Source of the DNA: Nitrospirota bacterium
GTDB taxonomy: Bacteria; Nitrospirota; Thermodesulfovibrionia; Thermodesulfovibrionales; Dissulfurispiraceae
NCBI GenBank assembly: GCA_040752355.1
Contig: JBFMHE010000010.1
Coordinates: 62,001-126,000 of the forward strand
Reading direction: 5' to 3'
Length of the DNA: 64,000 bases
The position numbers and the translations under genes were made by a program. How positions within the stretch are numbered: position 1 is the stretch's first letter; each line of letters starts with the position of its first letter. Positions 7,432 to 51,059 of this stretch are shown here, one piece after another. The notes under the pieces are model-generated. The model was given only the letters and a program-made list of their open reading frames with translations, had not been told where the DNA came from and did not search any database.

Positions 7432-7432
7432 A

Positions 7433-7795: not shown

Positions 7796-7808
7796 TTCGG
7801 TCTCCTTT

Positions 7809-22210: not shown

Positions 22211-22213
22211 GGC

Positions 22214-27613: not shown

Positions 27614-28398
27614 AGCGCCACCTCCTCCGGCTTCAGCACCCTCATTTTAACGAGAAGATCGGGTCTTTTCTTGTAGAGCAGTCCTACCATGCCCGCAGTC
27701 ATCGCCCCTTCGAGAATGCCGAGGGGGAGCTGCGTGGGAACAAAGGCGACGAGGATCTTCCCGAAGAGGGACAGGAAGGGCGACTTACCCCGTACGCCCG
27801 ACGCGAGCTGGACCGAGGTCATGCAGTACGTAGCCCAGTCGGCGACCACCCCCGCCATGAACGCAGAGAGCGTCAGATTCATCCTCAGGGCGCGCAGCCC
27901 CTTGTACGTCATGTATCCCGCAAAAGAGCCCACGACACCCATCGATACGATATTGGCCCCCCAGGTGCTCAGCCCGCCGTGCGCCATGAAGAGGGCCTGA
28001 ATGAGGAGCGCAACCGCTGCAACAAGGGCGCTGATGACAGGGCCGACGAGTATTCCCGATATGGCGGTCCCGGCCGGGTGCGAGCAGGTCCCTGCTGTCG
28101 GCACCGGTACGGGCATGCAGGAGATGATGAAGATCGCCGCAGCCATCAGCCCCACGAGGGGTTTGAAGGAGAGATCGCCGGCAGACCGCTGCCTCAGCCG
28201 GTACAATCCGAAAGCCACAAAGGGCAGGGCGACAGCCGACCAGAGCGCCGCCCACCCAAGGGGCAGTATCCCTTCCGCGATATGCATCGCGTGGGCTTCG
28301 GAGGCGGTGAAGAACGGATGAGAGAGCGCGAGCGCCAGCGCGCCCGCGATGACGGGTGATTTCTTCCGGCTCATGTCTTCCGGCTCCCGCTTCTTCAT
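27610..28398 (-). CDS. cbiM: CbiM, substrate-binding membrane component of cobalt transporter
   Basis: A 262-residue protein with a cleavable leader (about residues 1-36) exposing the metal-binding N-terminus HAMHIAEGILPLGWAALW typical of CbiM. It also has PVPVPTAGTCSHPAGTAI and about six membrane helices. The ATG at 28398 follows GGAGGTGTGATA; longer upstream reading lacks support. It works with CbiN, CbiQ and CbiO in high-affinity cobalt uptake. Confidence 0.92.
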   Translation of the reverse strand: MKKREPEDMSRKKSPVIAGALALALSHPFFTASEAHAMHIAEGILPLGWAALWSAVALPFVAFGLYRLRQRSAGDLSFKPLVGLMAAAIFIISCMPVPVPTAGTCSHPAGTAISGILVGPVISALVAAVALLIQALFMAHGGLSTWGANIVSMGVVGSFAGYMTYKGLRALRMNLTLSAFMAGVVADWATYCMTSVQLASGVRGKSPFLSLFGKILVAFVPTQLPLGILEGAMTAGMVGLLYKKRPDLLVKMRVLKPEEVAL

Positions 28399-28400
28399 TA

Positions 28401-30829: not shown

Positions 30830-31887
30830 AAACGCTCCAATTCCTTGATCAGCCGCCGGTTATCCCTGCTGGTCTTTACCGCAACCCTCATATAGGTCTC
30901 ATCGAGACCGGTAAAATTGACACAATTCCGCACGAGAATCCCCTTGCTGCGCAGGCCGGCGATGATATCCTGCGCAGCATCGAGCCGCAGCAGATAATAG
31001 TTGGCAGCCGAGGGAACATAATCGATGCCGAGGCGCCTGAACTCCCTCTCCATGAACGTCTTTTCCTCTTTGATGAACGCCAGCGACTCCTTTCGGTAGT
31101 GCTTGTCATCGAGGGCCGCGCTCCCGGCCCTCTGCGCAAGGCTGTTGACGGTCCAGGGCTCCTTATGGCGCCTGAGGAGCTCGGCAACAGGAGGCGGCGC
31201 CGCGGCAAAACCGAGCCGCAGCCCCGAGAGGGCATAAAACTTCGTCAGCGACCGCAGCACGATCAGGAAGGGATTTCTTGCAACCTCTTTGATGACCGAT
31301 TCCTTCGGCGTGAAGTCGATGAAGGCCTCATCCACGACGAGATAGCAGCCGAGCTCACGGGCTGCATCGGCGATGCCGAGGAGCGTACTCTTTTTTATAA
31401 GCCTGCCCGTCGGATTATTGGGATTGCAGAGGAAGACCATGCTGCAGCCCTGCATGGCGTGGATGAGCTGTTCGGCATTTACGTCAAAGCTGTTCGACGG
31501 TTTCAACAGGGGATGTTTGAGGGTGATCTTTTTCGACCGGAACTGGAGGAGCACCGCCCGCTCATACTCCTGGAACGTGGGCGCAGGTATGACCACGCTC
31601 TCGGGCTTCAGCGCCCTGGCGACGAGATAGATCAGCTCCGTGCTGCCGTTGCCGCAGATGATGGAGCCGGCATCGATCCCGTACTGCCGGGCGATCCGGG
31701 AAGTGAGGCGGCGCGCATCGGGGTCGGGGTAGTGCGGGAGGCTGCGTATGCCTTTCCTGATCTCCGCGGCTGCGGTCCGGGGGACCCCGAGCGGGTTTAT
31801 CGATGCGCTGAAGTCGAGGATCCTCTGCTCCGGAAGCCCGAGCTCCCGGGCGGCTCTATGGATATTGCCGCCATGCGGTTCCTGCAT
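30814..31887 (-). CDS. cobD: CobD-type threonine-phosphate decarboxylase (PLP-dependent)
   Basis: A 357-residue fold-type I PLP enzyme: ILDFSASINPLGVP, HYPDPDARRLTSRIA, ICGNGSTELIYL, FLCNPNNPTGRL, VVDEAFIDFTP and the PLP Lys in SLTKFYALSGLRLGFA. In the family it makes (R)-1-amino-2-propanol phosphate for the nucleotide loop. It sits between cbiB, which uses this product, and cbiA. GAGGGAGATA precedes the ATG. An ordinary histidinol-phosphate aminotransferase is less likely given the context. Confidence 0.9.
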   Translation of the reverse strand: MQEPHGGNIHRAARELGLPEQRILDFSASINPLGVPRTAAAEIRKGIRSLPHYPDPDARRLTSRIARQYGIDAGSIICGNGSTELIYLVARALKPESVVIPAPTFQEYERAVLLQFRSKKITLKHPLLKPSNSFDVNAEQLIHAMQGCSMVFLCNPNNPTGRLIKKSTLLGIADAARELGCYLVVDEAFIDFTPKESVIKEVARNPFLIVLRSLTKFYALSGLRLGFAAAPPPVAELLRRHKEPWTVNSLAQRAGSAALDDKHYRKESLAFIKEEKTFMEREFRRLGIDYVPSAANYYLLRLDAAQDIIAGLRSKGILVRNCVNFTGLDETYMRVAVKTSRDNRRLIKELERLCRVS

Positions 31888-32885
31888 TATCTCCCTCCCC
31901 CTGCGGCAATGATGATGAGGGATATCCCGATGCCGAGGAGCGCCGCGGCCCTCACCAGGGTAATAGCACGCTCGGAGGCGGCCAGGTAGTCATCGGTCCT
32001 CTCGCTTCCGATATAGGGCTTTTCGATTAGTATACCACCGTAGGTCGAGGGACCTCCCATCCTGATGCCGAGCGCCCCGGCCATCGCCGCTTCGGGAATG
32101 CCGCTGTTGGGGCTCGTATGGTTCCTGCCGTCGCGCAGCATCGTGAGAAGGGCGGCACGGGCCGATGCGGCAGAGGCGTTGCCCCGTTTCAGAAGGGCGA
32201 CAATGAAAACAGCGGCAATGAGCAGCCCCCCCGTAAGCCGCGCCGGGATATAGTTCGCCGCATCGTCGAGTCGGGCCGCTGCCCAGCCGAAGAAACGGTA
32301 CGTATCGTTCTTGTAGCCGACCATCGAGTCGAGCGTGTTGATCGCCTTGTAGGTTATGGCGAGCGGCAGACCGCCGAGCGTCAGGTAGAAGAGCGGGGCG
32401 ATGATGCCGTCGGAGAGGTTCTCGGCGAGGGTCTCCATGGTAGCCTTCAGAATATCCTTTTCCGCAAGGTTCCCGGTATCGCGGCCGACGATCATCCCGA
32501 GCGAGCGCCGCGCCTCGTCGATGCTCTGCTCCCGCACCGCTTCGATGACCGCACGCGCCGCGTCGACCAGTCCCCGCAGCGCAAGGGTGGTCGAGGCGAG
32601 ATAGACGAGTACCGCCGAACCGACGAGACCGCCGAGCGCGCCCGGCAGCTGTCGCGCTCCGGCCACTATAAGGGCGGCGACCGCAAAGGAAGAGAGAGTG
32701 ACGGCGAGCACCAGGAGGACTCCGCCGAGCCGCTCTCCCGCAGCGCTCTTGCAGAAGCTCCTGATGACCTTCTCCAGGCTGCTTATGGCCCGGCCGATGA
32801 TGCGCACCGGGTGCGGCAGCCAGCGCGGATCGCCGACGAGGAGATCGAGCAGGAAGGCGCAGAGCAGCTCGAGCGGCAGTATCAT
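31887..32885 (-). CDS. cbiB: CbiB, adenosylcobinamide-phosphate synthase
   Basis: A 332-residue membrane protein: LLDLLVGDPRWLPHPVRIIG, IVGRDTGNLAEKDILKATMETLAENLSDGIIAPLFY, NTLDSMVGYKNDTYRFFGW and NSGIPEAAMAGALGIRMGGPS. It joins aminopropanol phosphate to adenosylcobyrate. It is translationally coupled to cbiP (ATGA) and to cobD (TAATG). Confidence 0.93.
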   Translation of the reverse strand: MILPLELLCAFLLDLLVGDPRWLPHPVRIIGRAISSLEKVIRSFCKSAAGERLGGVLLVLAVTLSSFAVAALIVAGARQLPGALGGLVGSAVLVYLASTTLALRGLVDAARAVIEAVREQSIDEARRSLGMIVGRDTGNLAEKDILKATMETLAENLSDGIIAPLFYLTLGGLPLAITYKAINTLDSMVGYKNDTYRFFGWAAARLDDAANYIPARLTGGLLIAAVFIVALLKRGNASAASARAALLTMLRDGRNHTSPNSGIPEAAMAGALGIRMGGPSTYGGILIEKPYIGSERTDDYLAASERAITLVRAAALLGIGISLIIIAAGGGR

Positions 32886-34393
32886 AGGCCTGCCACCTTG
32901 TTCACGAAATCCATGTCCACGTGCTCCCTTACGACGCCGGCGAGCGCATCGAGCGCCTTGTCCTTCACTTCCGAGAAACTATAGACGGCGCCGAGCGGCC
33001 CCAGGCCTTTCCGGACCCGTATGCAGTCGAGAATATCCCTCCTGAAGCTGTCGTTGTCGAAGATGCCGTGGAGGTACGTTCCCCAGCAGGACTCCTTCCG
33101 GGAGCCATCGAGCACCGGGGCCGAACCCGAAGACCGGCGAATCCTGAACAGGCCTATATCCCCCCGGCTCTCGCCCATATGGATCTCGTATCCCTGCAGC
33201 GGCACACTGCTGTACGCATCTCCCCGGGCGGCGGACCATGAGCTGTCGGCGATCTCGGCCTCGCTCCGGCAGGTGGTCTTGGTCCTTTCGAAGACGGTCT
33301 CTATGTCGAGAAGGCCCAGCCCGTCGACCGTTGCATGCGGGCTCTCGATACCGTGGGGGTCCGCAATCGTCCTCCCCAGCATCTGGTATCCCCCGCACAT
33401 GCCCATCACCTGTACACCCTTTGCAGCGGCCCGCCGTATGCTCCGGTCGAGCCCGCGCTCACGGAGGAGCAGGAGGTCCTTCACCGTATTCTTCGACCCC
33501 GGGATGATCACCAGGTCGGCATTTTCTATATCCGCCGGGCTGCTCGAGTACACCATCTCGACATCGGGCTCGTAGAGGAGGGGGTCGAAGTCCGTAAAGT
33601 TCGAAATATAGCGGAGCCTCACGATAACGACTTTTATATCTGCGTGCCGTCTCCCCTGGTCCGCCCCCTGTCTCTGGAGCGCGAGGCCGTCCTCTTCGGG
33701 CAGCCCGATGTTGTGGATATACGGCAGCACGCCGATGACCGGCTTGCCCGTCTTGGCGCGGATCATATCGAGACCCGGCCTGAGTATCTCGAGATCGCCG
33801 CGGAACTTGTTGATGAGGAGCGCCCTGATGTATCTGCTCTCCTTTCCGAGGAGCTTCACCGTGCCGAAGAGGGATGCGAAGACGCCTCCCTTGTCGATAT
33901 CGCCGACGAGGAGCACCGGGGCTTTGGCGTATCGTGCGACCGCCATGTTCACCACATCGACATTCATGAGATTGATCTCGGCAGGGCTTCCCGCTCCCTC
34001 GATGACAATAAGGTCATTGTCCCGGGAGAGCGTATCGAAAGAGGAGGTGACCGACTTCCACGCCTCCTTCTTGAAGGCGTAATACTCCTGCGCCTTCATG
34101 GTGGCGAGTACCTTCCCTCTGATGATCACCTGCGACCCGATCTCTCCCGATGCCTTGAGCAGTATGGGATTCATGTCCACCGTTGCCGGGACCCGGGCTG
34201 CCTCGGCCTGGAGCGCCTGCGCCCTGCCTATCTCGCCGCCGTCAGCCGTGATATAGGAGTTGAGCGCCATGTTCTGCGCCTTGAACGGGGCTACCGCAAT
34301 ACCCCTGTCCCTGAAGATCCTGCAGAAGGCGGCGGCGATGAGGCTCTTGCCCGCACCCGACCCGGTCCCCTGTATCATCAGCGATCTAGCCAT
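32882..34393 (-). CDS. cbiP: CbiP/CobQ, cobyric acid synthase
   Basis: A 503-residue ATP- and glutamine-dependent amidase: MIQGTGSGAGKSLIAAAFC, PFKAQNMALNSYIT, IVIEGAGSPAEINL, GMCGGYQMLGRT with the Cys nucleophile and GTYLHGIFDND with His. It amidates four side chains of adenosylcobyrinate diamide. Residues about 248-260 (ALQRQGADQGRRHADI) are longer than usual and C/G-repetitive, possibly another small repeat insertion. The ATG at 34393 is preferred; a GTG four codons upstream is possible. Confidence 0.93.
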   Translation of the reverse strand: MARSLMIQGTGSGAGKSLIAAAFCRIFRDRGIAVAPFKAQNMALNSYITADGGEIGRAQALQAEAARVPATVDMNPILLKASGEIGSQVIIRGKVLATMKAQEYYAFKKEAWKSVTSSFDTLSRDNDLIVIEGAGSPAEINLMNVDVVNMAVARYAKAPVLLVGDIDKGGVFASLFGTVKLLGKESRYIRALLINKFRGDLEILRPGLDMIRAKTGKPVIGVLPYIHNIGLPEEDGLALQRQGADQGRRHADIKVVIVRLRYISNFTDFDPLLYEPDVEMVYSSSPADIENADLVIIPGSKNTVKDLLLLRERGLDRSIRRAAAKGVQVMGMCGGYQMLGRTIADPHGIESPHATVDGLGLLDIETVFERTKTTCRSEAEIADSSWSAARGDAYSSVPLQGYEIHMGESRGDIGLFRIRRSSGSAPVLDGSRKESCWGTYLHGIFDNDSFRRDILDCIRVRKGLGPLGAVYSFSEVKDKALDALAGVVREHVDMDFVNKVAGL

Positions 34394-35117
34394 TCCTCGA
34401 ATCACCCCTGCCAGGCTCGACGACGTAGTTGATCAATTTTGCGACCGGATACTTTTCCCAGAACTCGACGACATTGATGCTGCCGAGGCTCTGCTCGATC
34501 CTGAAGATATTCTCGAGCGGTATGCCGAGCAGGTGGCAGAGGATGATCCTGTTCACCCCTCCGTGGGCCACGACGACGATGCTCTCTCCCGGATGCGCGG
34601 CAATCGCGGCATCGAGGGCCGGGATCACCCTGTCCCTCACCTCGAGCGTGCTCTCTCCGTTTATCGGACTGTAGCGGAGCGGGTCCGTAGCCCATGCCTC
34701 GAATTCTGCAGGATAGCGCTCTTTTATCTCGATGAAGGAGAGGCCTTCCCATACGCCGAAGCTCCGCTCCCGCAGCTCCTGCCGGACGGTCGGCTTCAAC
34801 CCGTGAGGAGAGGCGATGATCTCGGCGCTCGTGAGCGCCCTGCTCAGCGGCGAACAGTACACTGCGGCAACGAACGGCCCCTTATCCTCCCGGTCTCCAC
34901 CTGACCCGGCATCGACCGGCGCCGTATGGATGTCCCGCAGATAGCTCAGCCGCTGGGAGAGGCGCGCTGACCGCGGATGGTCGAAGAGGAATGCAGCGTT
35001 CCTGCGCGCCTGCTCGCCCCCCCGCTCCGAGAGGGGGACATCGATGCTCCCCTTGTAGCGCTTGACGTCTCCGCCTTCGGTTTCGCCGTGCCTGATCAGA
35101 TAAAGCGTCGTAACCAT
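34386..35117 (-). CDS. cobC: CobC-type alpha-ribazole phosphatase (histidine phosphatase family)
   Basis: A 243-residue phosphoglycerate-mutase-like enzyme: LYLIRHGETEGGD, YCSPLSRALTSAEI, RERSFGVWEGLSF and VVVAHGGVNRIIL. It would dephosphorylate alpha-ribazole phosphate or adenosylcobalamin phosphate. A stretch at about residues 50-82 (SARLSQRLSYLRDIHT...), before AAVYCSPLS, is longer than in relatives and could be a degraded insertion. The start at 35117 lies inside the cobS end, without a clear ribosome-binding site. Confidence 0.85.
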   Translation of the reverse strand: MVTTLYLIRHGETEGGDVKRYKGSIDVPLSERGGEQARRNAAFLFDHPRSARLSQRLSYLRDIHTAPVDAGSGGDREDKGPFVAAVYCSPLSRALTSAEIIASPHGLKPTVRQELRERSFGVWEGLSFIEIKERYPAEFEAWATDPLRYSPINGESTLEVRDRVIPALDAAIAAHPGESIVVVAHGGVNRIILCHLLGIPLENIFRIEQSLGSINVVEFWEKYPVAKLINYVVEPGRGDSRNG

Positions 35118-35908
35118 AGGGTAAAGACCGCCAGGAATAAGATCTCCGCAATTTCGCTGAGAGCACCGAGGGTGTCTCCCGTAAGCCCGCCGAACCTCCG
35201 GCTGCAGAACCTGATCGCTGCAAGGCAGAAGAGGTAGAGGCTGATGAAGAGGACGAGGAAGAGCGTTATGCTCTCGGCGCCGTACATCCTGAGCAGGTGA
35301 AGCTCCGCAACGATGATGAAGAGGAGCCCGACGAGGAGCGAGGCGGTGATGACCGTGTTGAGGGCAACGCCGTCGATGAAGACCTGGCCGAGCCCCTCGC
35401 GCCGCGCGGAGGTGCCGTGGTACATGGCGGGCACCATCACCCATTTCGAGAAGACGGGCATAAGGAAAACCGCCGAATACGCGGTAAAGATCGGCGCGGC
35501 AACCAGGAGATGCCGGATGAAGAGAAGCTTCACTACGATGGTGATGACGATCGCCACCACCCCGATCGCGCCGGTGGCGCTGTCTTTCATCACCGCGAGC
35601 CGCCGCTCCCGGTCGAGCGCCTCATCCCCTTTCGATTTCACTGAAAGGGCATCGAACGTATCGGCAAGCCCGTCGAGATGGAAGCCCCCGTTGCTTATGA
35701 TGAGGAGCAGGATGATGAGGCCGCTGGTGATATCAGGAGAAAAGAGCATGAGCAGAAGCGATGCCGCGCCATAGAGGACGCTCCCCTGCAATGCCCCGAC
35801 CGCCGGGAAAAAGGCCGCCGACTGGGCGACCTCCCGCTCGGAGACATCCCCCCGCACCCGCGTGGGAATGATCGTGAGGAACTGGAACGCTAAAAGTAAT
35901 TGCCGCAT
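35096..35908 (-). CDS. cobS: CobS, adenosylcobinamide-GDP ribazoletransferase
   Basis: A 270-residue membrane protein with about six hydrophobic segments and the signature GGFHLDGLADTFDAL near residue 74, plus ERRLAVMKDSATGAIGVVAI. It condenses alpha-ribazole (phosphate) with adenosylcobinamide-GDP, the last major step. It lies 6 nt behind cobT, with no ribosome-binding site of its own, so coupling is likely. Confidence 0.93.
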   Translation of the reverse strand: MRQLLLAFQFLTIIPTRVRGDVSEREVAQSAAFFPAVGALQGSVLYGAASLLLMLFSPDITSGLIILLLIISNGGFHLDGLADTFDALSVKSKGDEALDRERRLAVMKDSATGAIGVVAIVITIVVKLLFIRHLLVAAPIFTAYSAVFLMPVFSKWVMVPAMYHGTSARREGLGQVFIDGVALNTVITASLLVGLLFIIVAELHLLRMYGAESITLFLVLFISLYLFCLAAIRFCSRRFGGLTGDTLGALSEIAEILFLAVFTLWLRRFI

Positions 35909-35914
35909 AGGTTG

Positions 35915-36976
35915 TCAGTTTTGTGACTCATTCGACACCCCGGCCTCTCCGAAGGTGGCCATCTCCTTGTAGATCTTCAGTCCGCCCTCTATGAGGAGCA
36001 TCGCGAGCGCTGCGCCGGTGCCTTCCCCCAGCCGGAGATCGAGGTCGAGGATGGGCCGCAGGCCCATTTTGTTGAGCATCGCCGTATGCCCTCTCTCGAT
36101 CGACTGGTGGGCGGCGAACATATAGTCCTTCGTCTTCGATTCGATGCAGTAAGCGACGAGCGCCCCCGCAGTCGAAATGAAGCCGTCGATCACGACCGGT
36201 ATCCTGCTTGCCGCAGCGCCCAGTATCAGACCGGCGATCCCCCCGATCTCGGCTCCTCCGACCTTTGCGAGCACATCGAGCGGGTCGTTCGGGTCGGGCC
36301 GGTTCACGCTGATCCCTTTCTCGATCACCTGAATCTTCCTCCTGAGGGATTCGTCGCTGATGCCGGTGCCTTTGCCGGTCACCTCGACAACCGGCGAGGC
36401 AGTCAGCACTGCCGCGATGGCGCTCGAAGGGGTGGTGTTGCCGATCCCCATCTCGCCGGTGCCGAAGATCTTATACCCTTTCTTGACATAGCCTTCGGCA
36501 ACGGTGATGCCGACTTCGATGCATCGGACCGCCTCCTCTCTCGTCATGGCAGGGCCCTTGGCAAAGTTTTTTGTCCCCTTCACGACCTTCATCGAGAGGA
36601 GCCCCTTGACCTCCTCGAAGTCGTGGTCAACCCCGATATCGACAACGACGACCTCTGCACCCGCGTGGCGGGCGAGCACATTGATGCCGGCGCCGCCCCT
36701 GATGAAATTCAGGACCATCTGCCGGGTCACCGCCTTGGGGAAGGCCGATACTCCCTCTTCGGTGACGCCGTGGTCTCCGGCAAAGGTGAAGACGACCTTT
36801 TTATCGAGCAGGGGGTTCTTGTTCTCCGTTATCGCCACCAGTCTTCCGGCGAACTCTTCGAGTCTTCCCAAGCTGCCGAGCGGCTTGGTGAGGTTGTCGA
36901 GATGCTTCTGGGCGATGCCCGACCACTCCTCGTTTACAGGCTTGATAGTTTGAAGCGTCCTGGTGAGCACGTCCAT
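35915..36976 (-). CDS. cobT: CobT, nicotinate-nucleotide:dimethylbenzimidazole phosphoribosyltransferase
   Basis: A 353-residue enzyme: [50 protein letters not shown], and near the C-terminus [13 protein letters not shown] containing the catalytic Glu. It activates the lower-ligand base. No enzyme for dimethylbenzimidazole synthesis is recognisable in the window. AAGGAGACGCT precedes the ATG; the gap to cobU is 33 nt. Confidence 0.94.
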
Positions 36977-40712: not shown

Positions 40713-41231
40713 TTAGTCCCTTCTTTCGTATCGATCAATTTTCAGTAATGCGTAATCGCCGACTTTTTCGGTGGTCACCTGTATATCATATGCATTTATT
40801 TCAGCATGCTTCTTGATTTCTAATATCGTGGAGACGCCGTTGAATGACGTGCCTGTAATAAATGTCCCGACTACAGCGTTTTTGATTTTACAATTCTCGC
40901 ACTGCTTGTCTTTGCCGCAGCCTGCCTCGGAGAGGGAGTGTATACAATCAAAGACCTGCCCGCCTCGGTGCTGTTCGATCCTCGATAAATCCTTTTCAAC
41001 GAGAGCGCATGCCTCTTGATTTGCGGTAACTACCTGTCTCGGGTTGCCCTGCATAAGGAGAAGGGGAGCATCGCTCTCGTCGAGGAATTTGACGAGGGCA
41101 CTGATGTCGCCTTGCTTCACTACATCATTTCTGCAGGCTGTACAAAGCCCCTTTGTAATAGGCCTCCTTGCTTCTTGCTGGATAGCAACGGCGTCTAACG
41201 CAGAACCGCACCAGATGCAAATCGTTTGCAT
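40713..41231 (-). CDS. Cys-rich PAS-like protein in the sigma-factor operon
   Basis: A 172-residue protein. The N-terminus has a zinc-ribbon-like set (ICIWCG and LCTACRND). The middle resembles a PAS fold: APLLLMQGNPRQVVTANQEACALV, FDCIHSLSEAGCGKDKQCENCKIKNAVVGT, then TILEIKKHAEINAYDIQVTTEKVG. A cluster of Cys (C-G-K-D-K-Q-C-E-N-C) within the PAS part could bind a metal or react to redox change. The ATG at 41231 has GAGGAGGCGGT. It may be a redox- or metal-sensing partner of the ECF sigma factor encoded upstream. Confidence 0.65.
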   Translation of the reverse strand: MQTICIWCGSALDAVAIQQEARRPITKGLCTACRNDVVKQGDISALVKFLDESDAPLLLMQGNPRQVVTANQEACALVEKDLSRIEQHRGGQVFDCIHSLSEAGCGKDKQCENCKIKNAVVGTFITGTSFNGVSTILEIKKHAEINAYDIQVTTEKVGDYALLKIDRYERRD

Positions 41232-41267
41232 ACCGCCTCCTCGTTCTCTCTGTGATATGATCATTAT

Positions 41268-41549
41268 TTATCCTCCTGGATGGCCTGATCGCTCTCCAAG
41301 TTCTTCTATCATGGTATCCATATCAACGTGGACAGCCTCTGCGAGCAATCCCTTGTCTTTGCAATAACTGACTGTTTCATCAAGTACTGACCTGAGCTCA
41401 TCTCTGAGATTATTGAGCTCTCCCAAGCCATCGCAGCCTTTCTGCCTTCTTTTGGCATAGATATAAAGGAGAGCGTACTCCTCCATAGTTCGGAGGAGTG
41501 TTTCGAGCTGGAGGTCTTTTTCCGCTGTGCCTGCAATGATTTCGAGCAT
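41268..41549 (-). CDS. Small helical hypothetical protein
   Basis: A 93-residue, largely alpha-helical acidic protein (ETLLRTMEEYALLYIYAKRRQ, then NNLRDELRSVLDETVSYCKD). No family is recognised. The ATG at 41549 follows TGAGGAAAGTG; a GTG four codons earlier is possible. It lies 74 nt after the ECF sigma gene and 36 nt before the PAS-like gene on the same strand, so it is probably part of one operon with them. Confidence 0.65.
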   Translation of the reverse strand: MLEIIAGTAEKDLQLETLLRTMEEYALLYIYAKRRQKGCDGLGELNNLRDELRSVLDETVSYCKDKGLLAEAVHVDMDTMIEELGERSGHPGG

Positions 41550-41623
41550 CACTTTCCTCACGTCTGGCAGAGTCTTTTATCCTTTATATCGTTAGACGGA
41601 AATGGGCGAGGAAAGGATACGGA

Positions 41624-42226
41624 TCATAGCGTGCGGCGGAATGGAAGCATGGTGCTTTTACGGTCGCAGGCGAATTCGTTGCGGTGATCGCGATAAAAGA
41701 TACACTGCGCTTCGAGCTCTTTTCTCAGGCATGCTCTGGCTCGGTGCAGCCTGATCTTTACGTTCCCCGCACTGATCTGGAGAATCGAGGCGATCTCCTC
41801 ATGGGAGAGCCCTTGCATATCCTTGAGCGCAATCACAATCCTGTGTTCTGCCGGAAGGTTCCTGATTATATCGCGTATGCACTCGTTCATTTCCTTCCTG
41901 ATGATGCCCAGGTCGAGGGGCTCTCGTTTGACTCCGCTGCCATCTCTGTCCTCAATATCATCAGCGACATCCGGGTCGGCAGGTATACTCCTGATTGCAT
42001 GCCGATATGAGGCCTCCCGCGCACGGTCCGCAACAGTATTTATCGCGATACGGTAGAGCCATGTTGAAACGTTCGATTCTCCTCTGAACTCCTGCAAACT
42101 TCGGCCTGCCTTGAGAAAGACCTCCTGCGTCAGGTCAGCAGCCTCACAAGGGGAAGTCAGCCGCTCAATGAGCCTCAGTATATCGGGCTGATAGGTCGCA
42201 TAGAGCCGTTCAAAATCGAGTGCCAT
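41624..42226 (-). CDS. ECF-type RNA polymerase sigma factor
   Basis: A 200-residue sigma70-family protein. Region 2 is FERLYATYQPDILRLIERLT...ADLTQEVFLKA...FRGESNVSTWLYRIAINTVADR, and region 4 is LPAEHRIVIALKDMQGLSHEEIASIL followed by GNVKIRLHRAR, which would recognise the -35 element. There is no region 3, as in ECF factors. The C-terminal 30 residues hold two Cys. No obvious anti-sigma membrane protein follows; the two small genes downstream may control it. Confidence 0.9.
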   Translation of the reverse strand: MALDFERLYATYQPDILRLIERLTSPCEAADLTQEVFLKAGRSLQEFRGESNVSTWLYRIAINTVADRAREASYRHAIRSIPADPDVADDIEDRDGSGVKREPLDLGIIRKEMNECIRDIIRNLPAEHRIVIALKDMQGLSHEEIASILQISAGNVKIRLHRARACLRKELEAQCIFYRDHRNEFACDRKSTMLPFRRTL

Positions 42227-42309: not shown

Positions 42310-42421
42310 GCAAAACAGGGCTAGAATACGAACAATCCTGCCCGGCACTGGGTGCCGCGGTCATAGAACTGGGTCACGAAATCAAGCCTGATCCCGCTGG
42401 TCTGACCATTGACGACAATTG
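42310..42421 (-). pseudogene. Remnant of a second PilZ-type gene 3' end
   Basis: On the minus strand this short frame ends with GTQCRAGLFVF and a stop, exactly the last residues of the PilZ protein encoded at 43678-43944. It is preceded by SGIRLDFVTQFYDR, which differs from the intact gene. The identical part coincides with a 38-bp direct repeat (42320-42357). It could be a gene fragment left by recombination around the ATPase gene, or a repeat that merely supplies a stop. Confidence 0.4.
42320..42357. repeat. 38-bp direct repeat, copy 1
   Basis: Identical to 43677-43714. It contains the dyad CGGCACTGGGTGCCG. The two copies flank the AAA_14/DUF4143 gene. Confidence 0.9.
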
Positions 42422-42469
42422 GCTCCATGTTTTATATTTGGATATGGCAATTCCATATTTGGACTTAAA

Positions 42470-43603
42470 ATGGAAACGATAAGGCGGTTTCTTAAAGCAG
42501 AAAGGCAGAGTTTTTTCCTGCTCGGCCCGAGGGGGGCAGGGAAATCGACCTTTATCAAGACAGCATATCCTGAGGCTTTGTATATAGATCTCCTCCTTCC
42601 CGATGTCTTCAGGAATTACACCGCCTATCCGGAGAGGTTGAGGGAGGTGGTGCATGCGCAGAAGGGAAAAAAGACCGTTGTCGTTGATGAGGTGCAAAAA
42701 GCGCCGCAGCTTCTCGAAGTGGTGCATAGCCTCATAGAGGAAAAGAAGGGACTTCAGTTTATTCTGACCGGCTCAAGCGCGCGAAAGCTCAGGAAAGCAG
42801 GAGTGAACCTGCTCGCCGGCCGAGCACTCATGAAACACATGCATCCTTTCACGGCTGCTGAGCTCAAAGAACTGTTTGACCTGGAGAGGGCTCTGGGCAT
42901 CGGCATGATACCGCTCATTCTTAGCAGCGCAGACCCTGCAGCAACACTTCAGGCATATGTCGATCTTTACCTTAGGGAAGAAGTGCAGCTGGAAGGGCTC
43001 ACAAGGAATATCGGAAACTTCTCCCGGTTTCTCGAGACCGTGAGCTTTTCCCATGGGGCCGTTCTTAATATAAGCAATGTGGCTCGTGAATGCCAGATAG
43101 AACGCAAGGTGGTAGAAGGCTACATCGGCATCCTCGAAGACCTGCTTTTAGCATACAGGATTCCGGTGTTTACCAGGAGGGCGAAGCGAGCGGTCGCTTC
43201 GCACCCGAAGTTCTACTTTTTCGATGCCGGCATTTTCAACGTCCTGCGACCATCGGGACCTCTTGACCGTCCTGAAGAAAAATCGGGTGCAGCCCTTGAG
43301 GGGCTCGTCTGCCAGCATCTGAGGGCATGGATCGACTATGCCCATTCGGGCTGCCAGCTCCACTATTGGAGGACCAGTGCCGGATCCGAGGTCGATTTCG
43401 TCGTGTACGGAAAGGACATATTTTCGGCAATAGAGGTGAAGAATGCGGCAACCATACATCCTCAAGACCTCCGCGCGCTCAAGTCATTTGGCGAGGACTA
43501 CCCAGAAGCAAAAAGGTTTCTTGTATACCGAGGCAAAGAAAGGCTGATAAGAGATGGTATTTCCATTGAGCCTGCCGATGAATTCCTGCTTGGGTTAAAG
43601 TAA
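42470..43603 (+). CDS. AAA_14/DUF4143 ATPase (copy 1)
   Basis: A 377-residue ATPase: Walker A LLGPRGAGKSTFIK, Walker B KKTVVVDEVQKAPQ, FILTGSSARKLRKAGVNLLAGRA, and a C-terminal DUF4143 domain ending in an endonuclease-like core (HYWRTSAGSEVDFVVYGKD...AIEVKNAAT). Such proteins are widespread, often horizontally transferred, and of unknown function. The ATG at 42470 has only a weak ribosome-binding site. A dyad (ATATGGCAATTCCATAT) lies 20-40 nt before it. The gene is bracketed by 38-bp direct repeats. Confidence 0.85.
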   Translation: METIRRFLKAERQSFFLLGPRGAGKSTFIKTAYPEALYIDLLLPDVFRNYTAYPERLREVVHAQKGKKTVVVDEVQKAPQLLEVVHSLIEEKKGLQFILTGSSARKLRKAGVNLLAGRALMKHMHPFTAAELKELFDLERALGIGMIPLILSSADPAATLQAYVDLYLREEVQLEGLTRNIGNFSRFLETVSFSHGAVLNISNVARECQIERKVVEGYIGILEDLLLAYRIPVFTRRAKRAVASHPKFYFFDAGIFNVLRPSGPLDRPEEKSGAALEGLVCQHLRAWIDYAHSGCQLHYWRTSAGSEVDFVVYGKDIFSAIEVKNAATIHPQDLRALKSFGEDYPEAKRFLVYRGKERLIRDGISIEPADEFLLGLK

Positions 43604-44260: not shown

Positions 44261-46966
44261 ATGGGCGTGACACGCAGGGGTTTCCTCAAGCTGTGCGCTG
44301 CGGGAGCGACGGCGGTCGCGGGGTCTCGGTATTTCGAGATCGCGCAGTCTGCGGACCGGCAGTACGAATCGATCGACCTGATCAGGTCGACCTGTTCGCC
44401 GAACTGCACAGGGGCGTGCGGGTTCAAGGCGATGGTGCACAAGGGCAGGATCGTCTCGCTCGTTCAGGCAGCGGACTATCCCGACCGGGAGTACAATCCC
44501 CGGGGCTGCTTGAGAGGGCAGTCGATGCTCAATCTCATCTACGGACCGGACCGGCTCAAGCATCCCCTCATCCGCGTCGGGCAGCGCGGCGAGGGAAAGT
44601 TCAAGGCGGTAAGCTGGGACGAGGCGCTGGACTACGTCGCCGATAAGCTCGCCGCGATCATGGCGAAGTACGGGCCCGAGTCAGTCGCGACCTCCATTCA
44701 GGTCCCCGGCACGGGCTATGTCAACAAAGGGGCGTTCATGAGGCTCTCCTCGCTCTTCGAGTGGAGCGTGCTGCATGCCTATACCATGAACGGCGACCTC
44801 CCCGCCTTCTGGCCCATGACCTTCGGGGTCCAGACCGAGGAGCTCGAGTCACTCGAGTGGATGAATTCACGGTACACCGCGATATTCGGATCGAATATCC
44901 TGGTGACGAGGGTGCCGGACGCCAAGTTCATCACCATCGGCAGGGAGCGGGGCGCCAAGGTCATCATGGTAGACCCGAACTATACGCCGACCGCCTCGAA
45001 GGCCGATGAATGGATCCAGATCAATCCTGCCACCGATGCGGCTATGGCGATGGGGATCGTCACGGTCATCGTCAACGAGCGGCTCTACGACGAGGAGTTC
45101 ATCAAGAGTTTTACGGATATGCCGCTCCTCGTGCGGCTCGACAACCGGAAGAAGCTGAGAGCGTATGAGGTGAAGTCCCTCAGCGGGCAGGCCGCTGCGC
45201 TCAAGGCGAGGATTCCCGAGTACCGCGATCTTTACGTGGCCTACGACCGCGCTGCGAAGCGGTTCGTCATCCCCGACCCCGAAGACCTTTCACGGAAATT
45301 CGATCCCGCGCTCGAAGGGAGCTTCGAGGTCGAGCTTGCCTCGGGAGAGCGGGTGAAGGTGAAACCGGTGTTCCAGCTGCTCAAGGAGTTCACGAACGAG
45401 CACTATACCCCCGAGAAGGCGGCGAAGATCATCGCGCCCGATGAATCCATGGCGCCGGGATACGCCGAGACCATAAAGCGCCTTGCCCGGGAGATGGCGA
45501 CGATAAAGCCGCTCCATATCGTCTACGGGGCGAGCAACTACCAGTGGTTCCACGGCGACCTGAAGGGCAGAGCGCTCTCCCTGATCGTCACGCTCACTGG
45601 CAATCTCGGGAAGCCGGGAGCGGGCATTTCGACCTATGCAGGCCAGTACCGCGTGCGCTGGCCCCTCGCCGCTTGGTGGAGCTTCAAGGAGAAGAAGAAC
45701 CGCTGGGTCACCTACCTGCTCTGGATGAACGATGAATACCGGAACGGCGAGGAGTATAAAAAATACAATAAAGAGACGCCGTACCCGAAAAATGGCGTCA
45801 AGGCGTTCCTCTACGGCTGGCACAATCCTTTTGACCAGCACAACATGGCGAACCGGATGCGTGAGAAGGCGCTCAGCGGCGACCTCGAACTGATCGTCGC
45901 GACCGACTTCCAGATGAGCACCTCCTGCCTCTGGTCCGACGTGGTGTTGCCGGGAGTCGCCTGGTACGAAAAATACGATCTTACCGCTACGGTCTCGCAT
46001 CCCTATGTCCAGCTGCAGCAGCCCGCCATTCAACCCCTCTTCGAGTGCATGCCCGAGATATGGATATTCAAAGAGCTTGCCAAGCGGGTGGCTTACCGCG
46101 TGGGCGACGACAGACTTAAGAAAGAGGTGGAGGAGTTCTACCCCGACCCCGCGCTCTTCAGGCAGGAGGAGGAGGCGCGGCGGAGCGGGACCTGGAGCCT
46201 GAAGCTCGCCCGCGATATCACGGAGAGGGCGTCCCTCGATGCAGCGGCGCTGATGCTCAGGACCGGCGGCGAGCAGGTCAAGGATATCACGGTCGAGATG
46301 CTTAAAAAGGGGCCGGTGCGGCTGAACCTGCCGACCCCGGGCAAGCGGCAGATCATGTTCTGGGAGCAGGTGGTGCAGAAGCAGCCCTTCCCGCCCGTCT
46401 CCTACCCCGCGCCGCTGCCGAAGACCGCCCGGTTCGTCAAGAGCGGAAGGGCTGAGTTCTACAAGGACGAGGACGTTTTCATCGACCTCGGGGAGATGCT
46501 GCCGATGCACAAGAATCCCTTTACCGACACGGAGTCCAGAAACCGCAAGGCAGTCAAATACAATCTCTCCTTCGTCACGAGAAACGCCCTCTACCGCGTC
46601 CATTCGACGCATAGCAACAACATCACCATGCTCGAGCTCCAGAATTTCAAGCCCAAGGTATGGATGAATCCGAAGACCGCCGACGCGCGGAAGATAAAGG
46701 AGGGCGAGCTCGTCGAGGTGTTCAATGACCGGGGGAGGGTCTGCGGCTATGCGGTTCCCGATCCCGGCCTCCATCCAAGGGTGATCGTCTTCGAGCAGGG
46801 CTGGTGGAGCAGGTACCTGAAGGGCAGCTCGTATAATACCTTGACCTATCCATGGATAAAGTCGTCCCATGTCATCTACTTCGTTCCGGGGGTATGGGAA
46901 CCGACCACGGCATGGAACGAGGTAGCCTGCGAAGTAAAGCGGGCAGAGGGGGTGCGCCATGCGTAA
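44261..46966 (+). CDS. Tat-exported type II DMSO-reductase-family molybdopterin oxidoreductase, catalytic subunit
   Basis: A 901-residue molybdoenzyme. A Tat signal (TRRGFLKLCAAGATAVAGS) sends it to the periplasm. A [4Fe-4S] site is formed by Cys45, 49, 53 and 83 (C-x3-C-x3-C-x29-C). NGDLPAFWP with Asp179 matches the Asp Mo-ligand region of NarG-like (type II) enzymes, as does YQWFHGDLKGRALSLIVTLTGNLGKPGAG. The operon adds a four-cluster Fe-S subunit, an NrfD anchor and a TorD chaperone. Nitrate, selenate, chlorate, sulfur-oxyanion or other oxyanion substrates are all possible. The ATG at 44261 follows GAGGAGGTACGAT. Confidence 0.88.
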   Translation: MGVTRRGFLKLCAAGATAVAGSRYFEIAQSADRQYESIDLIRSTCSPNCTGACGFKAMVHKGRIVSLVQAADYPDREYNPRGCLRGQSMLNLIYGPDRLKHPLIRVGQRGEGKFKAVSWDEALDYVADKLAAIMAKYGPESVATSIQVPGTGYVNKGAFMRLSSLFEWSVLHAYTMNGDLPAFWPMTFGVQTEELESLEWMNSRYTAIFGSNILVTRVPDAKFITIGRERGAKVIMVDPNYTPTASKADEWIQINPATDAAMAMGIVTVIVNERLYDEEFIKSFTDMPLLVRLDNRKKLRAYEVKSLSGQAAALKARIPEYRDLYVAYDRAAKRFVIPDPEDLSRKFDPALEGSFEVELASGERVKVKPVFQLLKEFTNEHYTPEKAAKIIAPDESMAPGYAETIKRLAREMATIKPLHIVYGASNYQWFHGDLKGRALSLIVTLTGNLGKPGAGISTYAGQYRVRWPLAAWWSFKEKKNRWVTYLLWMNDEYRNGEEYKKYNKETPYPKNGVKAFLYGWHNPFDQHNMANRMREKALSGDLELIVATDFQMSTSCLWSDVVLPGVAWYEKYDLTATVSHPYVQLQQPAIQPLFECMPEIWIFKELAKRVAYRVGDDRLKKEVEEFYPDPALFRQEEEARRSGTWSLKLARDITERASLDAAALMLRTGGEQVKDITVEMLKKGPVRLNLPTPGKRQIMFWEQVVQKQPFPPVSYPAPLPKTARFVKSGRAEFYKDEDVFIDLGEMLPMHKNPFTDTESRNRKAVKYNLSFVTRNALYRVHSTHSNNITMLELQNFKPKVWMNPKTADARKIKEGELVEVFNDRGRVCGYAVPDPGLHPRVIVFEQGWWSRYLKGSSYNTLTYPWIKSSHVIYFVPGVWEPTTAWNEVACEVKRAEGVRHA

Positions 46967-47705
46967 CTACGGAATGGTCATAGATCTGAATCGGTGCATC
47001 GGCTGCAGGAGCTGCGCCGTTGTCTGCAAGATCCACAACTCCGTGCCGCCGGGCACCTGGTGGCAGCGGGTGGAATCGGTCGGCTCCTCGGAGCACATGG
47101 TGCCTGCCGGCGAGGCGCCCGACCTCTCCGAGCCGTTCCTGCCGGTGCCCTGCATGCATTGCGAAGACCCGGCCTGTGTCAAGGTATGCCCTGTCGGCGC
47201 TACCTGGAAGCGGGAGGACGGTCTCGTGCTCGTCGATTATGAGCGGTGCGTCGGCTGCAGGTACTGCATGACCGCCTGCCCTTACGGCGTCAGGCAGTTC
47301 AACTGGCAGCATTCCGACGAGAGCTTTAAACAGGGATTCAGGAATGCGGGGTTCAGCGAGGAGTGGTTCCAGGACAAGGGCTACCGGTACGGCTATCCCC
47401 TCGACCACAGGACCAAGGGCAGATTGGTCTATACTCCGAAACGGCCGAAAGGCGTTGTCGAGAAGTGCACCTTCTGCGTTCAGTATGTAGACCAGGGCCT
47501 GCCGCCGGCGTGCGTCCGGGGCTGTCCCGGAAACGCGCGGGTCTTCGGGGACATGAACGATCCGAACAGCGAGATCGCGAAGGTGCTCAGGACGAGGGAG
47601 ATCTTCAGGCTGAACGAGGACCTCGGCACGAAGCCCAAGGTGTTCTACATCCCGCTTGCGCGGAGAGAGGGCAAAGGAGGCATTCACTATGACAGCAAAC
47701 TATAA
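46959..47705 (+). CDS. Four-cluster iron-sulfur electron-transfer subunit (DmsB/TtrB/SrdB type)
   Basis: A 248-residue protein with four cysteine groups for four [4Fe-4S] clusters: CIGCRSCAVVCK, CMHCEDPACVKVCP, CVGCRYCMTACP and CTFCVQYVDQGLPPACVRGCP. It links the membrane anchor to the catalytic subunit. It has no signal of its own and would be carried across by the Tat signal of its partner. It overlaps the catalytic subunit gene by 8 nt. Confidence 0.92.
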   Translation: MRNYGMVIDLNRCIGCRSCAVVCKIHNSVPPGTWWQRVESVGSSEHMVPAGEAPDLSEPFLPVPCMHCEDPACVKVCPVGATWKREDGLVLVDYERCVGCRYCMTACPYGVRQFNWQHSDESFKQGFRNAGFSEEWFQDKGYRYGYPLDHRTKGRLVYTPKRPKGVVEKCTFCVQYVDQGLPPACVRGCPGNARVFGDMNDPNSEIAKVLRTREIFRLNEDLGTKPKVFYIPLARREGKGGIHYDSKL

Positions 47706-48972
47706 GAAAATAATGACGATCCTCGCTGTGATCGTGGCGGTGGGACTCGGCGCATGGATATACCAGCTCCAGAGGGGGATGATCGTGACCAACATGCGTA
47801 ACTCCTTCTCCTGGGGGCTCTATGTGGCGATGTGGGCCTTCTATGTCGGCACTGCCGCCGGCGGCCTCGTCGTCTCATCCGCCATTTACCTCTTCGGGGC
47901 AAAGCAGCTGAAGCCCATCGCAAAAGTGGCGTCACTGACCGCCTTCATCTTCGCCGTGGGCGCGATGATCGTGCTGCTCCCGGATATCGGGCGGCCCGAG
48001 CGGCTGCTGTACATGCTTGTCTATGCTAATTTTACCTCCATGCTCCCCTGGGACATGGTAGTCCTTTCGTCCTATGCGGTCGTTTCGGCGGTCTATACCT
48101 ACGTTCTCCTGCGTCCCGATATCCTGAGCAAGGGCATTACCGTGCCCTTTGTCGGGACCCTCATGAAGCGTTCCATGACCCTCGAAGAGCTCGAGAGAGA
48201 ACGGGAGAAGTCCGAGAGACGCGCAAAGCTCCTGGCGCCAGTGGCGCTGCCGCTTGCCATACTCATCCATACGGTAACGGCCTGGGTGCTCGCCACACAG
48301 CTCGCCCGGCCCTGGTGGTTCGGCGGCGTGCTCGCTCCCACGTTCATAGCAGCAGCCCTCGCCACAGGGCCTGCAGTCGTGATCCTCGCCGCGCTCACGG
48401 CATACGGATATAAGGAAAAGCTGCAGGATACCTATCGCCTGCTGGCAAAGGTCTCGGCGGCAGCGTCGATCATCATGCTCTTCATTTACTACAATGATTT
48501 CGTGGTGCGGCTCTGGTGGAACAGCGGCAGGGAGGCAGAGGCGGTGAAGCTCGTATTCCACAACTACCTCGCCATCCACGCAGTGGAGGTCGCCTTCATC
48601 CTCCTCTCGGTGGCGATTTTCCTGTCCCGCCCCTCGAGCAGGAACCGGCTGGTTGGAGGGAGCCTGTCGGTCATCACCGGGGTGTTTGCGCACCGGTTCC
48701 TGCTCATCCCTCCCGCCTATAACCTCATACCGCTGAAGCTTCCCGTCATCACGCGGGGATCGACTGCGGAATGGTCCTACCCGATAGCGATCGGAGAGGT
48801 GCGGGGGAGTCTGCTCGATCCGCAGCCGGTCTTCGCCTCGTACTGGAAGTATGTTCCGTCGATTACCGAGGCGGCCATAGCGGCAGGGGTAATGGCATTC
48901 ATCCTGCTTGCGTTTATGGCCCTGATCAAAATGCTTCCTATCGAAGAGCCCGCCGGCGAGGTGAAGCAATGA
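47689..48972 (+). CDS. NrfD/PsrC-type membrane anchor
   Basis: A 427-residue protein with about ten hydrophobic helices: SFSWGLYVAMWAFYVGTAAGGLVVSSA near the start, WVLATQLARPWWFGGVLAPTF in the middle, and HRFLLIPPAYNL toward the end. NrfD-type subunits exchange electrons with the quinone pool without haem. The start at 47689 follows AAAGGAGGCATTC and overlaps the Fe-S subunit gene by 17 nt. The end overlaps the chaperone gene (ATGA). Confidence 0.9.
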   Translation: MTANYKKIMTILAVIVAVGLGAWIYQLQRGMIVTNMRNSFSWGLYVAMWAFYVGTAAGGLVVSSAIYLFGAKQLKPIAKVASLTAFIFAVGAMIVLLPDIGRPERLLYMLVYANFTSMLPWDMVVLSSYAVVSAVYTYVLLRPDILSKGITVPFVGTLMKRSMTLEELEREREKSERRAKLLAPVALPLAILIHTVTAWVLATQLARPWWFGGVLAPTFIAAALATGPAVVILAALTAYGYKEKLQDTYRLLAKVSAAASIIMLFIYYNDFVVRLWWNSGREAEAVKLVFHNYLAIHAVEVAFILLSVAIFLSRPSSRNRLVGGSLSVITGVFAHRFLLIPPAYNLIPLKLPVITRGSTAEWSYPIAIGEVRGSLLDPQPVFASYWKYVPSITEAAIAAGVMAFILLAFMALIKMLPIEEPAGEVKQ

Positions 48973-49451
48973 ACCCCTACCGGCTCTTCTCGCTCGTCTT
49001 CTCCTACCCCACGGAGAAGACGGTAGCGGCTGTTTCGGAGGCAGTGGACGACGAGGCTGCCCTCCTCACCGCCTGCGTCCAGCAGATGCAGTGCACGCCC
49101 CTCGAGCAGCTCCAGGAGGAGTACACGCGGCTCTTCATCAATTCCTATCCCACGCTCCTCTGTCCTCCCTATGAATCGTTCTACCGGGACGGAACGCTCT
49201 ACGGGTCCTCCTCTGCGGAGGTGAAAGAGATTTACAAGACATACGGCCTTGATTATACCTACGAGGGGGAGCCTCCCGATCTTCTGAGCGTCGAGCTCGA
49301 CTTCCTGGCATTGACGAACGACGGGGCCTTTCTCGAGCGGCTCAACGGCTGGATCTTCGCATTCACCAAGCGGGTAAAGGAGCACTCCGGGATATACGGC
49401 CCCTGTGCAGAGGAGCTGGAGGAGTTCCTGAGGGCGGCGGTGGCTCGGTGA
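48969..49451 (+). CDS. TorD-like molybdoenzyme chaperone
   Basis: A 160-residue helical protein: PYRLFSLVFSYPTEKTVAAV, then EQLQEEYTRLFINSYPTLLCPPYESFYRDG, the E.TRLF......PP.E motif of TorD/DmsD chaperones, and ELDFLALTND. It would hold the apo-catalytic subunit and its Tat signal until the molybdenum cofactor is inserted. It is the last gene of the operon. Confidence 0.85.
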   Translation: MNPYRLFSLVFSYPTEKTVAAVSEAVDDEAALLTACVQQMQCTPLEQLQEEYTRLFINSYPTLLCPPYESFYRDGTLYGSSSAEVKEIYKTYGLDYTYEGEPPDLLSVELDFLALTNDGAFLERLNGWIFAFTKRVKEHSGIYGPCAEELEEFLRAAVAR

Positions 49452-49601: not shown

Positions 49602-51059
49602 TTAGTCCTCCGTGTCGGCATGTCTCGTTGCCAGAAGTTCTGACTGCCCGAGCCAATAACACGCCAGAAGGGCCGGAATCTTGAGGAGCCGGGTGCTTGC
49701 CGGAGTGCCGTCCAGCGGAACCACAGTGAAGTCCTCCATTCCCCTTGTTACCACATAACCGCGAGAAATCTTTTTTGAGGTGCAAAATTCAATGATGCCC
49801 TTCAGCTCATCGAGATCGGTATGGTGGTGACGGTACTTTATTTCGAACGGGACCAGCCTTCCTCGAACATCCGCTACGATATCTACTTCATCGCTTCTTT
49901 TTCCGCGCCAGTAGGAAAAGCCGACGCTCATATCATAGTAGCGTGTGAATACATGTTTGAAAAACGCCGTCTCCACCGCCCGGCCCACTGCAACCGCATC
50001 CTGCAGCATGGCTTTCCCTTTTAATAATACACTCGGTGCAATAGCGGCATCGGCCAGGTAGACTTTGTGCCGCGCCCTGAGGATTTCTTTTCCATAACCG
50101 TAGGGCGGCAGGCGATGGATCAAATGAGTGGCCTCCAGCAGAGAGATGAAACTTGTTGCCGTGGGCTTCTTGACCTCCAAGTTTCTGCATAAATCCTGCA
50201 CATCCAGAAGACCGCCGTCATGCAGACAGAGATAGAGGAATGTCTGTTCCAGCTCCAAAACCCTTCGCACACCGAAAAGCGCCGTCATGTCACGTTTGAG
50301 GACTTTGTCCACAATATCTTCGCGTAACAGTTTCTGCGCAAGGTCCACGCTTGCTACAAGGGCGCACTGGGGAAAACCGCCGCGCATCAGGTACTCGTGG
50401 AAGTGAGGAATCAGCGGTCGCGCAATGTCTCCCGCACGAACGAACTGGGCCGGTGACCAGCGAAAGAGTGTTGTCAGTGAGGCCACTTCCGGCAGCGGAG
50501 GCACGGTGATTTTTTTGAGTTGCAGGTACTCGAAAAAAGACAGGGTCGCCAGTTTAATAGTGTGCCAGCGCCCCACACCCGACTCTTGTCCCTCTGCTGT
50601 CAGCGGCGTTGCCGAGCCGGTAACAATAATGCGGCGGTTTTTGTGAAAATCGACCTGGAGCTTCAACCACGTCTGCCAGTCTCTCATAAACTGGATCTCA
50701 TCAAGAAGAAGATATTCCGGTCCCTCGGCGGCAGATTCGAACTCGCGCCACAGTTTCAGCGTACCGTCAAGTCCGGCTAATTTCAGCAGTGGATGGTCAA
50801 AAGTAGCATAGAGAATATTCTGGGGTGGTACACCCGATGCTACAAGGGATTCAACAGCCTGCAGCAGCAGCGTTGTCTTGCCCACCTGCCGGGCCCCGCT
50901 CAGGAGCACTGCCCGCGGTGCAGGCGGTGTGCGAAGCCAGAGTTCCAACTCGCGAAACGCAGCTCTTCGCCATTCTGGCAGATCGGGAACACGCATTCCC
51001 GACCACCAGGGGTTGTACTGCCTGAGTACTGCAATAAGCTCTTGAGGCAATGTAATCAT
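49602..51059 (-). CDS. AAA_14/DUF4143 ATPase (copy 2)
   Basis: A 485-residue ATPase with Walker A LLSGARQVGKTTLLLQ, Walker B EYLLLDEIQFMRDW, IIVTGSATPL, a winged-helix-like middle part and the DUF4143 nuclease-like core (SYWRGKRSDEVDIVADVRGRLVPFEIKYR). It belongs to the same broad family as the gene at 42470-43603 but is longer and only distantly related. A 28-bp perfect palindrome lies just upstream. Function is unknown in the family. Confidence 0.85.
   Translation of the reverse strand: MITLPQELIAVLRQYNPWWSGMRVPDLPEWRRAAFRELELWLRTPPAPRAVLLSGARQVGKTTLLLQAVESLVASGVPPQNILYATFDHPLLKLAGLDGTLKLWREFESAAEGPEYLLLDEIQFMRDWQTWLKLQVDFHKNRRIIVTGSATPLTAEGQESGVGRWHTIKLATLSFFEYLQLKKITVPPLPEVASLTTLFRWSPAQFVRAGDIARPLIPHFHEYLMRGGFPQCALVASVDLAQKLLREDIVDKVLKRDMTALFGVRRVLELEQTFLYLCLHDGGLLDVQDLCRNLEVKKPTATSFISLLEATHLIHRLPPYGYGKEILRARHKVYLADAAIAPSVLLKGKAMLQDAVAVGRAVETAFFKHVFTRYYDMSVGFSYWRGKRSDEVDIVADVRGRLVPFEIKYRHHHTDLDELKGIIEFCTSKKISRGYVVTRGMEDFTVVPLDGTPASTRLLKIPALLACYWLGQSELLATRHADTED

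Follow-up and report, generated by a model that had tools for sequence, protein, structure and literature searches.

The closest described relatives of the locus reported here are the genes AF0173-0176 of Archaeoglobus fulgidus, which annotation assigns to a nitrate reductase (pNar) and proteomics links to (per)chlorate reduction, with homologs named as Ferp_0124, GAH_01285-01288, Moth_1908 and in Desulfosporosinus (PMC8322695, PMC6299022, PMC3949148, PMC4600277). The substrate was inferred in that literature from growth experiments and proteome data rather than from assays of the purified enzyme; the family is thus already reported, but its function is poorly understood. Here we describe a member from a sulfur-cycling Nitrospirota bacterium of the family Dissulfurispiraceae (GenBank assembly GCA_040752355.1, a 3.57-Mb draft genome). 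It is encoded on a stretch of 64,000 nucleotides, hereafter the window, representing positions 62001-126000 of contig JBFMHE010000010.1. Four overlapping genes on the forward strand (44261-49451) form an operon in the order A-B-C-D; the initial annotation, made from the sequence alone, had located and ordered these genes correctly, and the architecture is assigned with high confidence. Its features are:

44261..46966, forward strand: catalytic subunit (A) with a molybdenum-bis(molybdopterin guanine dinucleotide) (Mo-bisMGD) centre; 901 amino acids, twin-arginine translocation (Tat) leader, cluster FS0 ligands Cys45/Cys49/Cys53/Cys83, Asp179 as presumed Mo ligand
44789..44803, forward strand: codons of the NGDLP motif of A (residues 177-181, holding the presumed Mo ligand Asp179)
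46959..47705, forward strand: iron-sulfur subunit (B); 16 Cys in four [4Fe-4S] motifs, closer to DsrO/ArrB/TtrB than to NarH
47689..48972, forward strand: NrfD/PsrC-type membrane anchor (C), predicted to be quinol-oxidising; PF03916, about 10 transmembrane segments
48969..49451, forward strand: TorD/NarJ-type assembly chaperone (D); PF02613 70 bits, TIGR03482 44 bits

The overlaps are 8 bp between A and B, 17 bp between B and C, and an ATGA sequence between C and D. The ATG start codon of A is backed by the sequences of relatives. In agreement with the predicted export of A, its leader reads MGVTRRGFLK, and of the 70 relatives whose N-terminus is intact, 68 carry a twin-arginine motif.

The catalytic, iron-sulfur, membrane and chaperone components described for AF0173-0176 equal those of the window operon, and the operons of relatives share the order catalytic, Fe-S, NrfD, chaperone and the Tat leader of the AF0173-0176 type. 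The genera in which that family was reported (Ferroglobus, Geoglobus, Archaeoglobus, Moorella and Desulfosporosinus) were all among the relatives found here, their proteins being 52-73% identical to the window A. Based on organisms and on gene set and order, with AF0176 matched by its description only, we infer with high confidence that the operon belongs to this family, to which it adds a Nitrospirota member. The initial annotation had overlooked this system and considered the layout to be known in few enzymes, a view that does not hold. A profile search of genome contigs returned 532 confirmed relatives of the Asp-type query profile, classical type II enzymes included; the best 80 of these, which were retained, all have a catalytic subunit of the window family, mostly with matching B and NrfD genes behind it. 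Among these 80, identity to the window A was 74-78% in Thermodesulfovibrionales and other Nitrospirota, 70-73% in Archaeoglobus, Ferroglobus and Geoglobus, 66% in Thermosulfurimonas, approximately 51-56% in Moorella, Desulfosporosinus and Desulfobacterota, 51% in Methanoperedenaceae, about 48% in rumen Lachnospiraceae and 42-46% in Eggerthellaceae. The family ranges over Nitrospirota, Archaeoglobi, Desulfobacterota, Bacillota, Methanoperedenaceae and gut Actinomycetota, and the interleaving of archaeal and bacterial sequences in the tree suggests gene transfer. A close copy (77-78%) was found in three others among 100 relatives of the window genome. A literature search found no paper on this enzyme in Thermodesulfovibrionales.

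The best NCBIfam model for A was TIGR03479 (type II) with 511.9 bits, short of the curated cut-off of 984.75, followed by DmsA (292 bits), NarG (289 bits), PhsA (212 bits) and TtrA (61 bits). The best match in the PDB was the perchlorate reductase subunit PcrA (4ydd, E=1e-114). In a maximum-likelihood tree of catalytic subunits with 52 rows, A fell inside a family clade of 25 members (support 100), within which a sub-clade joined it with the Archaeoglobus sequences (support 100). This clade was sister to all sampled classical Asp enzymes, namely E. coli NarG, PcrA, chlorate reductase (ClrA), Nitrospirota type II, Nxr-like and haloarchaeal pNar sequences, with support of 99 for the joint group and 90 for the classical side. 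The approximately unbiased (AU) test rejected a tree constrained to unite the family with PcrA (p=4.4e-9); a constraint to the PhsA/Psr/ArrA/Ttr side was rejected more weakly, to a moderate degree (p=0.026). A phylogeny had been proposed in the initial annotation as a check, and A was found outside the PsrA/PhsA/TtrA clades, in line with the profile scores for TtrA and type II. The AlphaFold model of A (predicted local distance difference test (pLDDT) 85, predicted template modelling score 0.86) was nearest in fold to PcrA (Z 44.7), Nxr (40.4), EbdA (40.0) and NarG (33.9). The proposed membership of the NarG/SerA branch was thus right as to the Asp type and the nearest folds, but the family forms a separate clade beside classical type II enzymes. 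Two PsrA-like proteins from the host's order or family (L018, L017) carry Asp in the ligand column (HGDLA) and were sister to all Asp-type enzymes.

The Asp of the NGDLP motif, which the initial annotation had recognised, is invariant in all 81 members of the family; its counterparts in the alignment are PcrA D170 and the Asp of the NarG 'CDLPP' motif, and Asp179 is presumed to ligate Mo. The first FS0 position is Cys (Cys45) in 80 of 80 readable family sequences. NarG, PcrA, ClrA and haloarchaeal pNar have His there, so that the CxxxCxxxC motif, previously read as a mark of the NarG/SerA branch, in fact sets the family apart from it. A separate observation concerns a Methanoperedenaceae sequence (L067) and one further member, in which Asp stands in place of Cys49, the second ligand of FS0 (SPNDTGAC), and the other three Cys are kept; in both, the FS0 cluster is possibly altered or Asp-ligated. 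In PcrA, Phe164/Tyr165/Trp461 form an aromatic gate. The counterparts in the window A are Ala173/Tyr174/Tyr463; across the 81 members the first is Ala, Gly, Pro or Cys, the second is invariant and the third is Tyr in 74 and Phe in 7.

PcrAB(CD) of Azospira shares the Asp ligand and the periplasmic location with the window enzyme and is the nearest solved structure (33-34% identity over 793-794 residues). It differs in the His at FS0 ligand 1 and the Phe164/Trp461 gates, and lies inside the classical type II clade, with the window family outside. PcrA is fed by soluble cytochromes rather than by an NrfD anchor. Orthology to PcrA was ruled out by the tree, the AU test and the gate residues. NarGHI, haloarchaeal pNar and Nxr resemble the window operon in their Asp-type catalytic subunit and NarJ/TorD-kind chaperone, but have a haem-b or bc-type anchor and a NarH-type beta subunit, as well as His at FS0 in NarG and pNar. 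The Srd selenate reductase resembles the window operon in that its Mo subunit is periplasmic and its Fe-S and membrane subunits are of the Psr/NrfD kind. It had been offered as an analogue in the initial annotation, but SrdA is reported to have Cys-ligated Mo and to belong to the TtrA lineage, which rules out a reading of the Srd selenate type (PMC7331816, PMC10100899). On a plasmid of Halobiforma lacisalsi (L024), a haloarchaeal Mo-NrfD operon has the same order (catalytic, DsrO-like, NrfD, TorD-like); its catalytic subunit shows 27-30% identity and falls outside the window family clade.

All four [4Fe-4S] motifs of subunit B are complete and together account for its 16 Cys, each of which is kept in 64-66 of 66 relatives. 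It scored 214 bits with the NCBIfam DsrO model NF045797 (cut-off 200, passed), 200 with ArrB and 181 with TtrB, against 129 bits with the type II beta model and 91 with NarH. Subunit C matched PF03916 with 215 bits and contained about 10 hydrophobic segments; its score with DsrP was 144 bits, under the cut-off of 350. A Pfam and NCBIfam scan of the operon genes revealed no gene for a haem-b gamma subunit, with the NrfD gene in its place, as the initial annotation had recognised. Since the DsrO/ArrB/TtrB-like B sits with an NrfD anchor, the operon appears to combine an electron-transfer module of the Psr/Arr/Dsr kind with an Asp-type catalytic subunit. Assignment of B and the NrfD protein to a Dsr complex was ruled out, as both are co-operonic with a Mo subunit. 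As its score exceeds the DsrO cut-off, B is likely to be misnamed DsrO by NCBIfam and, given that it is not in a dsr operon, widespread misannotation is likely.

We surveyed the neighbourhoods of 81 relatives' loci, with background gene densities taken from 43 carrier genomes. Many of the recurrent non-core neighbours are nitrate or nitric oxide (NO) genes. napA, napG and napH adjoin the operon in three loci. At one of these, a Thermodesulfovibrionales operon with 77% identity, an NrfA-like cytochrome gene comes directly after the chaperone gene. NrfA or NrfA-like cytochromes occur in three loci, Hcp in seven, a flavodiiron NO-reductase-like protein in five and NarL-like regulators in nine. 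An NreA-like nitrate-sensor histidine kinase was found in seven loci, all from rumen or gut Bacillota (L078, L081, L084, L090, L094, L170 and L171); in these kinases an N-terminal NreA-like nitrate-sensor domain is fused to the kinase. By hand count, 18 of the 81 loci contain at least one of Nap, Nrf, Hcp and NreA. In the 43 genomes, Hcp was seen near the operon four times, at a different position in each locus, against 0.16 expected (P ~2e-5), and Nrf also exceeded its genome-wide density (P 0.004), both values being computed post hoc and ignoring shared ancestry; prismane matches of approximately 620-680 amino acids were taken as CO dehydrogenase, not Hcp, and excluded from the background count. 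A MopB gene without Tat leader lies upstream in seven Bacillota loci; it was rejected as NapA, scoring as formate dehydrogenase/NasC-like, and is outside the nitrate tally. The recurrent neighbour clusters of the 81 loci contained no recognised sulfur, selenium or arsenic gene. Chlorite dismutase, expected as a companion of PcrA, was absent from all 43 carrier genomes, the window genome included, and control genomes gave matches. This absence, together with the recurrence of nitrate and NO genes beside relatives' operons, is new here.

The initial annotation had rightly kept the list of possible substrates open. Because the carriers lack chlorite dismutase and relatives' operons repeatedly adjoin nitrate or NO genes, our tentative preference is for a nitrate reductase of the periplasm that is haem-free and quinol-dependent and has chlorate and perchlorate as side substrates, a reading to which we give somewhat less than even odds. 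We infer an electron path in which menaquinol would be oxidised by the NrfD anchor, possibly with charge translocation, and electrons would reach the Mo-bisMGD centre held by Asp179 by way of the four [4Fe-4S] clusters of B and then FS0 of A. There an oxygen atom would be taken from the substrate, most likely in the reduction of nitrate to nitrite, with chlorate or perchlorate as alternatives. The chaperone would mature A before joint export of A and B by Tat. Nitrate is reduced by two carriers, Desulfosporosinus metallidurans and Desulfosporosinus sp. I2 (L044, L046), that have no homologs of NarG or NapA of the E. coli type (PMC10949509 Table 1). Nitrate-induced clusters with NrfD-type molybdoenzymes, DEACI_2560-2564 and DEACI_3268-3271, are described from Acididesulfobacillus (PMC10949509) and may or may not fall in the family clade.

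Several observations weigh against a role in nitrate reduction. Among carriers, D. fructosivorans (L049) is reported as nitrate-negative (PMC10949509 Table 1), Geoglobus ahangari does not respire nitrate (PMC4600277), and Archaeoglobus neptunius, which has close homologs, does not grow on nitrate, chlorate or perchlorate (PMC8322695); AF0173-0176 of A. fulgidus are induced on (per)chlorate (PMC3949148, PMC8322695). The nitrate and NO neighbours occur in only a minority of relatives, clustered in some lineages, and the window operon itself has no adjoining gene for nitrate or nitrite metabolism. The active-site loop (residues 177-181) has a pLDDT below 50 in the model of A. Furthermore, nitrate is already covered in the host, where a NapA-like gene adjoins NrfA on another contig (C23). 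The host also carries ArrA, a PhsA-like enzyme and DsrAB, with dsrA on the operon's contig about 70 kb away; given these other reductases and the lack of an adjoining nitrate gene, the substrate in this host is the least certain step.

A (per)chlorate reductase in the wide sense, the main rival reading but one that we consider unlikely, would form chlorite from perchlorate and chlorate in the periplasm, and chlorite would be removed chemically by sulfide from the same Dsr-carrying cell. Such sulfide scavenging was proposed for A. fulgidus, which grows on perchlorate with the AF0173-0176 proteins induced (PMC8322695, PMC3949148, PMC4150442), and it fits both the missing chlorite dismutase and the presence of DsrA above cut-off in 26 of the 43 carriers, including the window genome. 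PcrA is also the best sequence and structure match of A, and two of its gate aromatics are kept, Tyr174 without variation and Trp461 as Tyr or Phe; the third, Phe164, is not, and the tree separates the family from PcrA. Most rumen and gut members have no DsrA above cut-off and are unlikely to meet perchlorate, the neighbourhoods indicate nitrogen oxides rather than chlorine, and the negative growth of A. neptunius extends to (per)chlorate. Were the enzyme nonetheless to act on (per)chlorate, that trait would reach Nitrospirota and the gut.

A reductase for another acceptor, such as selenate, iodate, a sulfur oxyanion, an N-oxide or an organic nitro compound, serving anaerobes of very different habitats, is unlikely too, if slightly less so. 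Asp-type enzymes are very varied in substrate (PMC10100899), nitrate and (per)chlorate both go unused in some carriers (PMC8322695, PMC4600277), and the host has its NapA-like, ArrA and PhsA-like enzymes already; the neighbour clusters, with nitrate-linked genes recurring and sulfur, selenium and arsenic genes unrecognised, speak for nitrate instead. Highly improbable is an oxidative role as an EbdA-like anaerobic hydroxylase of alkenes or other hydrocarbons, passing electrons into the quinone pool via NrfD. AF0173-0176 were proposed to be alkene-activating by analogy with ethylbenzene-type hydroxylases (PMC4600277), and EbdA is among the nearest folds, but the operon lacks the haem-b gamma subunit of the EbdA type, A scored 272 with the EbdA equivalog model against a cut-off of 2000, carriers include rumen bacteria and acetogens, and the neighbours are of the nitrate type.

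If the favoured nitrate reductase reading is correct, many strict anaerobes regarded as unable to reduce nitrate (among sulfate reducers, Archaeoglobi, rumen Lachnospiraceae and Eggerthellaceae) possess a periplasmic nitrate reductase overlooked or misnamed by annotation pipelines, as in the scoring of its Fe-S subunit as DsrO. It is possible, though doubtful, that the family adds a third architecture to Nar and Nap, the quinol-linked respiratory nitrate reductases, being haem-free, periplasmic, NrfD-anchored, possibly charge-translocating and spread by gene transfer. This would be common to Archaeoglobi, Nitrospirota, sulfate reducers, acetogens, anaerobic methanotrophs and gut bacteria, and would explain nitrate reduction in anaerobes without a recognised nitrate reductase. 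Whether nitrate or (per)chlorate is the substrate, the published pNar and perchlorate reductase views of AF0173-0176 become directly testable with the bacterial version.

An Asp-type molybdoenzyme adjoining a chlorite dismutase-family gene was noted at positions 4833-9492 of locus L020 on an Alisedimentitalea plasmid (NZ_CP123588); it has Asn at the FS0 His/Cys ligand position and Tyr at the position of PcrA Trp461. In the window, the operon is flanked by two AAA_14/DUF4143 ATPase genes at 42419-43603 (forward strand) and 49602-51059 (reverse strand). An extracytoplasmic function (ECF)-type sigma factor gene and, after it, two small genes that match no Pfam model, one encoding a Cys-rich product, lie at 40713-42226 (reverse strand), and a large cobalamin biosynthesis cluster at 18027-36976 encodes a CbiG fusion, CbiA/CobQ-like and CobT-like proteins and tetrapyrrole methylases.

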